51,489 nt of DNA from positions 1 to 51,489 of the IMG/VR virus record IMGVR_UViG_3300042691_025598; one strand, 5' to 3'. Source of the stretch: a virus. A program made the translations under genes and the position numbers. Positions 9,693 through 38,123 of this stretch are shown here, piece after piece (positions within the stretch are counted from its first letter, which is position 1; each line of letters begins with the position of its first letter). A model generated the notes under the pieces. It had not been told where the DNA came from. It did no database searches and saw only the letters and a list, made by a program, of their open reading frames with translations.

Positions 9693-9704
9693 TATTTATA
9701 AATA
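9693..9704 (+). promoter_or_regulatory. Candidate late promoter, palindromic TATTTATAAATA
   Basis: A perfect 12-bp palindrome that contains T4's late-promoter core TATAAATA, 9 nt before the ATG at 9714. The same 12-mer occurs before the fibre gene at 38131, and the shorter TATTTAT precedes eight other starts. A phage sigma (gp55-like) element is an inference. Confidence 0.5.
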
Positions 9705-16596: not shown

Positions 16597-18456
16597 ATGG
16601 ATATTTCACAAAAAATTTTAAGTGACATAACTGTACATATGAAGTACGCAAAGTTTATCCCGGAACTAAACAGAAGAGAGACTTGGGAAGAATTGGTAAC
16701 AAGAAATAAAGAAATGCACCAAAAAAAGTATCCGCAAATCAAGGATGAAATTGAAGAGGTGTATAAAATGGTTTACGATAAAAAAATACTTCCATCTATG
16801 AGATCACTTCAGTTTGGTGGTAAACCAATTGAAATCTCACCAAATAGAGTATACAATTGTGCTTATTTACCAATTGATCATACTGATGCATTTTCTGAAA
16901 CAATGTTTTTACTTTTGGGTGGGACTGGAGTTGGGTTCTCAGTACAAAAACATCACGTAGATAAACTTCCGGAGATTAAAAAACCAAACCCAACAAGAAC
17001 AAGAAGATATTTGATTGGGGATTCAATTGAAGGGTGGGCTGACGCAATTAAAGTTCTTATTGAATCATATATGGGGTCAAAATCATCAACACCGGTATTT
17101 GATTATTCAGATATCCGTCACAAAGGGGCCCTTCTTGTTACATCAGGAGGAAAAGCTCCAGGACCACAACCATTAAAGGATTGTATTCACAATATCACAA
17201 AAGTCCTTGACGCAAAAGAAAATGGTGATAAACTTTCACCGATTGAAACACACGACATCGTTTGTCATATTGCTGACGCAGTATTAGCCGGAGGTATCAG
17301 AAGAGCAGCACTTATTAGTTTGTTTTCAGCTGACGATGATGAAATGATTTCTTGTAAATCAGGAAACTGGTGGGAATCAAACCCACAAAGAGGTAGAGCA
17401 AATAACTCTGCGGTTCTTCTTCGTCACAAAGTAACACAAGATTATTTTATGGATCTTTGGAAAAGAATTGAACTTTCCGGAGCTGGAGAACCAGGAATTT
17501 ACTTGTCTAACGACAAAGATTGGGGGACAAATCCTTGTTGTGAAATTGGACTTCGCCCTTATCAATTCTGTAATCTTTGTGAAGTTAATGCATCAGATAT
17601 TGAATCGCAAGAAGATTTTGAACAACGAGTTAAAGCAGCGACATTTATTGGAACACTACAGGCTGGTTATACAGATTTCCATTATCTACGTGACGTTTGG
17701 AAAAGAACAACAGAAAAAGACGCACTAATTGGTATTGGTATGACAGGAATTGGTTCCGGTGTTGTTTTGGGTTATGATATGAAAGCAGCGGCTGAAGCAG
17801 TAAAACAAGAAAACGAAAGAGTTGCAAATCTTATTGGAATTAACAAGGCCGCTAGAACTACAACTGTTAAGCCATCCGGAACCTCATCTCTTGTATTGGG
17901 AACATCCTCTGGAATTCACGCTTGGCATAATGATTATTATTTGAGAAGGATTCGTGTTGGAAAGAATGAAGCAATTTATAGTTATCTTGCAATTAATCAC
18001 CCAGAACTAGTTGAAGATGAATACTTCCGACCACACGATACCGCTGTAATCACAATACCACAAAAAGCACCTGAAGGATCAATTCTACGATACGAATCTG
18101 TATTCCAGATGCTTGAAAGAGTTAAAAAAGTTTCTCAAGAGTGGATTAAATTTGGTCATAGAAGTGGTCAAAACACACACAACGTGTCAGCGACAGTTTC
18201 AATAAAAGAGGATGAGTGGGACTTAGTTGGTGATTGGATGTGGAAAAATCGTAAGTTCTATAATGGTTTATCAGTACTACCATATAATGGAGGAACATAT
18301 ACACAGGCCCCATTTACCGATTGTACACAAGATGAATTTGAAAAACTTGTTAAAACATTATCTGATGTTGATTTAACAAAAGTTATTGAATTACAAGATA
18401 ATACCGACCTACGAGGAGAATTGGCTTGTGCGAACGGATCTTGCGAGATAATCTAA
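16597..18456 (+). CDS. nrdJ: Adenosylcobalamin-dependent (class II) ribonucleotide reductase
   Basis: 619 residues resembling monomeric class II reductases such as Lactobacillus RTPR. NPCCE at 312-316 places the radical Cys at C314 with the catalytic Glu two residues on. C325 lies 11 residues later, the same spacing as C408/C419 in RTPR. C88 is the likely partner of C325. The C-terminal pair C611/C616 has the C-x4-C spacing of the thiol-delivering tail. GGTGVGFS and the PSGTSS loop also fit. It makes deoxyribonucleotides from host ribonucleotides without oxygen but needs B12 from the cell. No small subunit gene follows, as expected for class II. It is shorter than RTPR (739), probably through loss of accessory insertions. 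A strong terminator closes the unit. Confidence 0.9.
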   Translation: MDISQKILSDITVHMKYAKFIPELNRRETWEELVTRNKEMHQKKYPQIKDEIEEVYKMVYDKKILPSMRSLQFGGKPIEISPNRVYNCAYLPIDHTDAFSETMFLLLGGTGVGFSVQKHHVDKLPEIKKPNPTRTRRYLIGDSIEGWADAIKVLIESYMGSKSSTPVFDYSDIRHKGALLVTSGGKAPGPQPLKDCIHNITKVLDAKENGDKLSPIETHDIVCHIADAVLAGGIRRAALISLFSADDDEMISCKSGNWWESNPQRGRANNSAVLLRHKVTQDYFMDLWKRIELSGAGEPGIYLSNDKDWGTNPCCEIGLRPYQFCNLCEVNASDIESQEDFEQRVKAATFIGTLQAGYTDFHYLRDVWKRTTEKDALIGIGMTGIGSGVVLGYDMKAAAEAVKQENERVANLIGINKAARTTTVKPSGTSSLVLGTSSGIHAWHNDYYLRRIRVGKNEAIYSYLAINHPELVEDEYFRPHDTAVITIPQKAPEGSILRYESVFQMLERVKKVSQEWIKFGHRSGQNTHNVSATVSIKEDEWDLVGDWMWKNRKFYNGLSVLPYNGGTYTQAPFTDCTQDEFEKLVKTLSDVDLTKVIELQDNTDLRGELACANGSCEII

Positions 18457-18462
18457 TAATAG

Positions 18463-18500
18463 AAAAGTAAGGAATTTATTAAAAGTTCCTTACTTTTTTT
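18463..18500 (+). terminator. Strong intrinsic terminator after nrdJ
   Basis: A 12-bp perfect stem AAAAGTAAGGAA (18463-18474) / TTCCTTACTTTT (18486-18497) with an 11-nt loop, followed by continuous T to 18500. It begins seven bases after the nrdJ stop and separates replication genes from the HNH cassette. Confidence 0.9.
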
Positions 18501-18543
18501 ATTTCACAATATATTTATATATAATAACAAATACTTGTGAAAT
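18501..18543 (+). promoter_or_regulatory. Inverted repeat bracketing a TATTTAT promoter at the HNH start
   Basis: ATTTCACAA (18501-18509) and TTGTGAAAT (18535-18543) are perfect 9-nt inverted arms, 25 nt apart, and the right arm abuts the ATG at 18544. TATTTAT (18512-18518) lies inside the loop. In a long transcript the arms would pair and mask the start; a transcript beginning at the inner promoter would lack the left arm. The arms could instead be an operator. Confidence 0.5.
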
Positions 18544-19155
18544 ATGAAAAAAATTGAAATGATTGGTAAAGTTTTTGGAAAACTTAAAGTGGTTGAAGAA
18601 CTAAAAAAGAATAAAAATGGTCACATAAGATATGGATGTGAATGTGAATGTGGTAATATGACAGAAGTTTTTGGAACACATTTACGTAGTGGCGGTATAG
18701 TTTCTTGTGGTTGTAAGAATAAAATAAATAAAGACGGGGGGATAACCGGAAATTTATGGTATAATATAACTAAATATAAAACATCTAAAAGGTCAAATAG
18801 AAGAAATTTAGATTTTAATTTAACAAAGGAGTATCTTTACGACTTATATGTAAAACAAAATGGCAAATGTAACTTATCTGGAATTGATATCACATTACCT
18901 ATTAGTTGGAATGATAAAAGTTACACTGTATCATTAGATAGAATAGATAGTAAAAATGGTTATGTTATTGGGAATGTACAATGGGTGCATAAACATATAA
19001 ACGTGATGAAAAACACCTTTAATCAAGATATGTTTATTTTTCTATGTAATCAAGTAACTAAAAATAATGAATTAGTTGATTTTAATGTTAAAAAAATTGA
19101 CGATTTTAAATGGGGTTTAAATACAAAATATTATGAAAGTACAATGGGGAAATAA
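18544..19155 (+). CDS. HNH homing-type endonuclease with N-terminal zinc ribbon
   Basis: 203 residues. The N-terminal half has a CECECG ... CGC cysteine cluster (about 38-60), which looks like a small metal-binding DNA-contact module. The C-terminal half has an HNH-type core: KCNLSGIDI, SLDRIDSKNGYVIGNVQWVH and KHINVMKNTF, matching the 'sLDRid...gY...NvqwV...iN.mK' signature of phage HNH enzymes. It would nick or cut a specific DNA site and promote its own spread between related phages. It is a free-standing gene between two terminators, with its own promoter-like element and start-masking inverted repeat. No intron halves were found in the flanking genes, nrdJ being intact. Confidence 0.85.
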   Translation: MKKIEMIGKVFGKLKVVEELKKNKNGHIRYGCECECGNMTEVFGTHLRSGGIVSCGCKNKINKDGGITGNLWYNITKYKTSKRSNRRNLDFNLTKEYLYDLYVKQNGKCNLSGIDITLPISWNDKSYTVSLDRIDSKNGYVIGNVQWVHKHINVMKNTFNQDMFIFLCNQVTKNNELVDFNVKKIDDFKWGLNTKYYESTMGK

Positions 19156-19214
19156 TGTAACATTAACATATCAAGTGTTGTTGGCATTTTATAACTTAAG
19201 AAAAAATAATTAAA

Positions 19215-38111: not shown

Positions 38112-38123
38112 TATTTATAAATA
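38112..38123 (+). promoter_or_regulatory. Candidate late promoter, palindromic TATTTATAAATA
   Basis: The second perfect copy of the 12-bp palindrome found at 9693, ending 7 nt before the fibre-gene ATG. It contains the T4 late core TATAAATA. Confidence 0.5.

Follow-up and report, generated by a model that had tools for sequence, protein, structure and literature searches.

A conserved hairpin enclosing a promoter-like element at the start of a phage HNH endonuclease gene probably serves as a two-transcript translational switch

The window, i.e., the whole stretch of DNA analyzed here, is a 51,489-base virus record in which a ribonucleotide reductase gene is followed by an HNH endonuclease gene, a DUF5522 ORF and baseplate genes (Table 1). 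By its PHROG profile matches the HNH gene product is assigned to the homing endonucleases and to the HNH family; at a threshold of 0.001 the protein has no Pfam match. The gene occupies a slot behind the reductase gene: In many relatives lacking it, a small ORF resembling the 26-aa ORF of the window or a DUF5522-like ORF stands immediately after the reductase stop, as judged by eye, while some relatives carry other sequence there, which in L042 and L051 is another gene (L numbers denote loci, G numbers related records). The phages of the group have T4-like genes. Named relatives of the baseplate proteins belong to an uncultured phage, a Microcystis phage and Flavobacterium phages (26-28%), the nearest named HNH matches include Chryseobacterium and Bacteroides phages, and the reductase is nearest to that of a Microcystis phage (68%). 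Reductase homologues of about 62% identity are labelled 'recombinase' in the public records of Vibrio phage OP056089 and Oceanospirillum phage OL658619. Shine–Dalgarno-like 4-mers precede 128 of the 2489 genes in the window and related records, a scarcity that fits a Bacteroidota host.

Table 1. Features in and around the leader of the HNH endonuclease gene (window coordinates).
Feature	Position	Strand	Basis
Ribonucleotide reductase gene (class II-type domains)	16597..18456	+	phrog_367, E 8.6e-132; Pfam Ribonuc_red_lgC, RNR-II_ins_dom
Terminator-like stem	18461..18499 (18461-18477 / 18483-18499)	+	inverted repeat and predicted fold
Left arm ATTTCACAA	18501..18509	+	inverted repeat; conserved in relatives
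TATTTAT promoter-like element within the loop	18512..18518	+	motif count and position
Predicted transcript start	18523..18525	+	inferred from A enrichment at +11 to +13 across 312 TATTTAT sites
Right arm TTGTGAAAT, abutting ATG and containing A-3 (18541)	18535..18543	+	inverted repeat, fold, conservation
HNH endonuclease gene, 203 aa	18544..19155	+	phrog_3322, E 1.7e-22; phrog_374, E 6e-22
26-aa ORF that overlaps the 3' end of the HNH gene	19133..19213	+	read by eye

A first-pass annotation of the window had described perfect 9-nt arms around a 25-nt, TATTTAT-bearing spacer with the right arm touching the ATG, and the coordinates bear this out: ATTTCACAA and TTGTGAAAT are perfectly complementary, 25 nt lie between them, and the repeat extends to 16 nt per side at 88% complementarity (18494-18509 / 18535-18550), reaching beyond the start codon. 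The left arm is touched by the T run (18494-18500) of the upstream terminator-like stem, which is absent from the output of a consensus terminator scan. Folded as RNA, the 55-nt leader has a predicted energy of -8.3 kcal/mol (z = -2.32), which was equaled or bettered by 6 of 200 shuffles; taken singly, this energy would argue only modestly for a functional hairpin, and conservation is the stronger evidence. The fold predicted for a read-through RNA of 221 nt has the right arm paired at 88-100%, so that A-3 lies in the stem, and the A of the AUG paired at 86%, whereas at 37 °C the U and the G of the AUG are unpaired with probabilities of 0.92 and 0.68. In the window the stretch before the start is thus predicted to be masked more than the start codon proper, and the expectation that the start region itself is masked holds for the right arm and the A of the AUG and largely fails for the U and the G. 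That the leader offers no Shine–Dalgarno sequence to hide is confirmed. In the fold of the predicted late RNA, taken to begin at 18525, the AAAT preceding the ATG stays 77-96% open, and the TTGTG of the right arm pairs with the coding sequence. A search of 18300-18800 against Rfam up to an E-value of 1 returned only a sub-threshold match to sau-5971 (24.8 bits against a gathering score of 90), which we treated as chance.

TATTTAT is the commonest 7-mer of the intergenic plus strand of the window, where it occurs in 9 of 21 intergenic stretches, with 22 sites over the entire plus strand. In a first set comprising nine related records and the window (1314 ORFs), 246 of the 314 sense sites located at most 60 nt from an ATG start at -29 to -10, and the antisense motif is positioned more weakly; in eleven further records the same interval holds 167 of 234 sites. 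Among 312 distinct sites the motif is preceded by A in 65%, an A/T-only box lies 14-17 nt upstream, and A reaches 75-79% at 11-13 nt from the first T. This A-rich stretch at +11 to +13 suggests the transcript start, which for the window would fall in the loop past the left arm. In its frequency, positional clustering and downstream profile, TATTTAT behaves like a promoter element in these phages, in agreement with the promoter motif that had been proposed to lie in the loop. Late action is plausible: Window genes preceded by the motif include ones for structural proteins (gp25-like baseplate, tail fibre, Hoc-like), and those for SSB, a UvsX-like protein, a methyltransferase and an exonuclease do not carry it. 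It also precedes a DnaB-like helicase gene, so that the element may not be strictly late. The late promoter sequence of T4 as given in a review, TATAAATA (PMC3014915), differs from the sense motif of the window and was rejected as a promoter here, occurring at the locus only on the minus strand and in the window with 14 matches against 10.8 expected. Flavobacterium phage immuto was likewise set aside as a user of TATTTAT, the motif showing no clear enrichment in the 100 kb that were read.

For the conservation analysis, relatives of the HNH gene were collected from viral contigs. An exact DNA pattern made up of the arms and the ATG matched 64 stretches, 42 of them starts of a window-type HNH gene; TATTTAT lies between the arms in all 42 but in only 2 of the 22 others. 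A looser arm pattern matched 8 of 20 related records, all selected for holding a window-type HNH or reductase relative; six of these matches are window-type HNH genes and two (G008, G010) are devoid of TATTTAT, while the reversed control pattern gave no match in the 20. The tally of 56 HNH loci (about 40% identity or more, more distant matches being uncounted) comprises 26 distinct 50-nt leaders: TATTTAT lies within 60 nt in 49 loci, a loose stem test is passed by 55 and both apply to 49, the stem scored in L203, L204, L222 and L223 being different from the homologous one. Those more distant matches whose leaders were displayed have no such hairpin leader.

Alignment of 23 distinct leaders of the window family, 21 of them with TATTTAT, yields a helix of ten pairs in which 92.6% of the cells are paired, against at most 64.9% in slid versions; excluded were L222, L223 and L258, where the homologous hairpin is absent and whose omission raises the percentage, L203 and L204, where TATTTAT is altered, and some near-duplicates. 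Two-sided changes occur at four of the ten pairs, in nine cells, which none of 500 shuffles reached and which rules against a chance inverted repeat. Examples are the compensated pairs ACTTCACAA/TTGTGAAGT in L227 and CTCGCAT/ATGTGAG in L225 as well as an inner extension that reads GGTTA/TAACC in L221 and GATTA/TAGTC in L228. Pairwise identity is 0.87 in the arms and 0.84 in the seven columns that mostly read TATTTAT, compared with 0.48 in the remaining loop; in L026 and L218 the ATG lies inside the arm. In three related cases (L220, L221, L228) the upstream terminator-like stem is missing and the start hairpin is longer than in members that possess this stem. Judged from these alignments, the pairing of the window-family arms is under selection, and the pairing predicted over the initiation region of the long RNA appears conserved, as in systems of the T4 and mobE type. 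One of the tests that the first-pass annotation had set for its reading, conservation of the arms where the gene is conserved, therefore came out in its favor: Most family members examined keep the arms, with compensatory changes.

The same layout appears with different arms in other endonuclease genes of the group. In a family of 527-aa endonucleases, whose similarity to the window HNH protein is undetectable, 41 of 64 loci were examined. Among their 30 distinct leaders, 26 share a stem AAAATCCATA.../...TATGGATTTT whose paired bases take in the AUG and the first codons; its left arm holds TATTTAT in 25 of the 26. Over 18 pairs in these 26 aligned leaders, 92.8% of the cells are paired, with two-sided changes at three pairs (5 of 500 shuffles) and in five cells (0 of 500 shuffles): In L585 the second codon has changed from GAT to GAC and the left arm, correspondingly, from A to G; in L566 a change from GAT to GAA is accompanied by A to T. 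The hairpin is absent from L583, L591 and L592, and in L580 the start is altered. A second HNH gene (L328) has arms wholly different from those of the window, GTGTTGTGGTTTAT/ATAAACCACAACAT; we discarded the idea of an unrelated family, its protein being 41% identical to the window protein and the arms being what differs. Of its relatives, 12 of 43 loci were examined (L534 belongs to the window family). Where L505 has TTGTGG/CCACAA, L511 has TTATGG/CCATAA; L509 and L510 form 21-22 pairs that include the ATG; L512, L514 and L520 are without such a hairpin. For GIY-YIG genes, 79 loci were reduced to 44 distinct leaders that were scored (34 displayed), a minority of which have TATTTAT enclosed by a long stem. 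The hairpins of L225 and L517 enclose TTTG-N19/20-TAnnTTTG in place of TATTTAT, which we take to be a host-type promoter form, and that of L224 encloses only TATCTTTA; TATTTAT is scarcely used in the records from which L224 (G006) and L225 (G018) come, with 1 of 47 and 1 of 92 genes, respectively. The start-proximal hairpins of L224, L225, L517 and L518 all hold TAnnTTTG or TAnnTTTA instead of TATTTAT.

Each TATTTAT site ahead of an ATG was given a score for a stem extending across the motif as far as the start. Scores of at least 26 were reached by 8 of 313 sites of the first set, against 0.4 in shuffles, four of the eight being the window HNH gene and near-identical copies; at a score of at least 18, 53 sites were observed and 39 expected. 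Hairpin control of TATTTAT genes in general was dismissed on these grounds, the stem excess being confined to the extreme tail. The top seven genes all match endonuclease PHROGs, namely a GIY-YIG gene (17-19 pairs, ATG within the arm), a 527-aa phrog_3339 gene, the second HNH gene, and the window gene with three near-identical copies; ranks eight to ten are held by a PAS histidine kinase-like gene, a tail tube gene and a phrog_559 endonuclease. In held-out records 4 of 232 sites score at least 26 (0.2 expected), and the prediction set beforehand, that such genes would mostly be endonucleases, proved correct for one of the four, the top gene, which matches phrog_559; no PHROG was matched by the remaining three.

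When TATTTAT-bearing genes were grouped into clusters, each represented in both groups by its highest-scoring member and with endonucleases outside the searched families falling under the others, stems scoring at least 22 occurred in 8 of 14 endonuclease clusters compared with 11 of 283 other clusters (p 1.4e-7), and in 6 of 12 upon removal of the window HNH family (p 1.1e-5). As phrog_559, phrog_314 and PF01844 were searched once the ranking had been seen, the contrast was repeated with only the families searched before it, again minus the window HNH family, giving 3 of 7 against 11 of 283 (p 0.003). Computed masking energies, i.e., long minus short RNA, have a median of 4.2 kcal/mol for endonucleases and 1.5 kcal/mol for the others (p 0.009), and values of at least 4 are found in 8 of 15 endonuclease and 40 of 287 other clusters; for the window-family member in G005 the computed masking is small (1.5 kcal/mol). 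No clear start-enclosing hairpin was seen at several other endonuclease loci of these phages, L284, L285, L288, L289, L291, L292, L293, L295, L297 and L310.

In our view these observations are best, and with good likelihood, explained by a translational switch between two transcripts like that of T4 I-TevI and of mobE, operating in a Shine–Dalgarno-poor lineage. Read-through RNA, for which the upstream reductase gene is a possible source, would carry both arms and fold, thereby hiding the nucleotides just before the AUG, A-3 included, so that little endonuclease would be translated. RNA initiated at the TATTTAT promoter inside the loop would begin at about 18523-18525 without the left arm; the bases ahead of the start would be more accessible and the endonuclease would be translated. 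The hairpin would thus probably prevent production of the enzyme from long read-through messages and permit it from short ones. What we infer is that TATTTAT is a promoter and acts late, where transcription begins, and how translation is affected; seen directly are the conserved and covarying arms, the presence and position of the promoter-like motif, and the recurrence in other endonuclease genes. On the strength of arm conservation, motif and recurrence, the T4-like logic put forward in the first-pass annotation finds support from sequence comparison. We count against it the predicted pairing of TTGTG in the late RNA, the open U and G of the AUG, the endonucleases devoid of a hairpin and the single success among four held-out genes; moreover, the upstream terminator-like stem may already stop much of the read-through.

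The precedent invoked there agrees with what two reviews describe: In T4 I-TevI long transcripts fold and block translation, whereas late transcripts start inside the hairpin and are translated, and similar arrangements have been reported for I-TevII, I-TevIII, segB and Aeh1 mobE (PMC2988022, PMC3014915). A closer match than I-TevI is mobE of Aeromonas phage Aeh1, described in the former review as a free-standing HNH gene likewise located at a ribonucleotide reductase gene, with a hairpin over the initiation region and a promoter whose transcripts are without part of the structure (PMC2988022). It differs in that its hairpin sequesters a Shine–Dalgarno site, while the leader in the window has none and the stem covers its start-proximal part, and the window further departs from it in the sense motif TATTTAT and in belonging to a phage of a distant lineage. 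I-TevI to III are intron-encoded and equipped with Shine–Dalgarno sequences. The T4 genes e (lysozyme) and soc also have inhibitory leader structures on longer, earlier RNA, a masking akin to that proposed here, although they do not encode homing endonucleases (PMC2988022, PMC3014915). In Flavobacterium, initiation is described as being tuned by mRNA structure and A-3 without Shine–Dalgarno sequences (PMC6847099).

Among competing explanations, the inverted repeat could be a DNA operator whose arms are bound by the endonuclease or another protein that represses the promoter between them, much as I-TevI, a known autorepressor, binds its own operator in T4 (PMC2988022). We regard this as unlikely. 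The TTCACA/TGTGAA core is nearly invariant, as expected of an operator, and TGTGAAAT, which resembles the right arm, occurs in 66 of 77 reductase 3' ends of phages without a window-type HNH gene but in only 6 of 27 stretches upstream of HNH-bearing loci, as if it were a homing site; here HNH absence was judged by a pattern test, the counts ignore relatedness, and the 27 stretches include one that is incomplete and four without a reductase-end match. Possibly, then, the reductase-end TGTGAAAT is the homing site and the leader holds an operator copy. An operator sits poorly with the spacing of the arm cores, which varies from 25 to 30 nt, with compensatory and G-U changes that fit RNA pairing, and with the quite different arms of the homologous HNH gene of 41% identity. 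It could also act together with the RNA switch. In the reductase gene TGTGAAAT represents 3' codons (18420-18456 in the window; reductase ends L036-L115).

Still less probable is that the hairpin has another RNA role, such as 5'-end stability, a processing site or a part of the upstream terminator, and that the loop motif is incidental. A terminator-like stem does abut the arm in the window, and in the GIY-YIG leaders L475, L477 and L486 the TATTTAT hairpin is followed by TTTTT in terminator-like fashion; yet in several families the start codon lies within the arm or directly beside it, for which neither stability nor termination has any need, and the small stem excess of TATTTAT genes overall speaks against such a role. 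In L475 and L486, TATTTAT forms the tip of a 14-15 pair stem before TTTTT, i.e., a promoter-like motif within a terminator-like hairpin. Chance or shared ancestry, that is, a recent cassette copied together with its leader and without selection on pairing, is strongly disfavoured and very improbable: The fold of a single copy is by itself not extreme and many loci are near-identical, but pairing persists, with compensatory changes, in members at about 41-49% protein identity, and the hairpin recurs elsewhere with different arms.

In the reviews cited, the switch is described for a small number of genes in T-even phages and their relatives (PMC2988022, PMC3014915), and our search of literature listings, with most subscription journals outside its scope, found no paper on such a switch in Bacteroidota phages. 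Compared with the T4 precedent, what is new is the lack of a Shine–Dalgarno sequence, the promoter sequence and the lineage; the layout itself is known and recurs here in more than one enzyme family. Whether at least three families (phrog_374-type HNH, 527-aa phrog_3339 and GIY-YIG) repeatedly acquired a start-hiding promoter-in-hairpin switch through selection on layout rather than on sequence appears to us evenly balanced. Signs of such selection are the differing arms of HNH genes that are 41% identical, synonymous codon changes that are matched in the opposite arm, and the few members whose hairpin holds the host-type motif where others have TATTTAT. If true, its presence in several families of a distant, Shine–Dalgarno-poor lineage would suggest that invading endonucleases come, as a general rule, under pressure to be silent on read-through RNA. 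The many natural leaders with compensatory changes are direct test material for masking of a start region without a Shine–Dalgarno sequence, and TATTTAT emerges as a candidate promoter element in a group of uncultured phages. Two smaller observations concern this motif. At L042 and L051, the protein encoded in the slot behind the reductase gene begins with MGRKGISKYDN, and its hairpin ends at TATTTAT and does not enclose it. At 9693-9704 and 38112-38123, TATTTATAAATA, situated shortly before gene starts, reads as TATTTAT on either strand.
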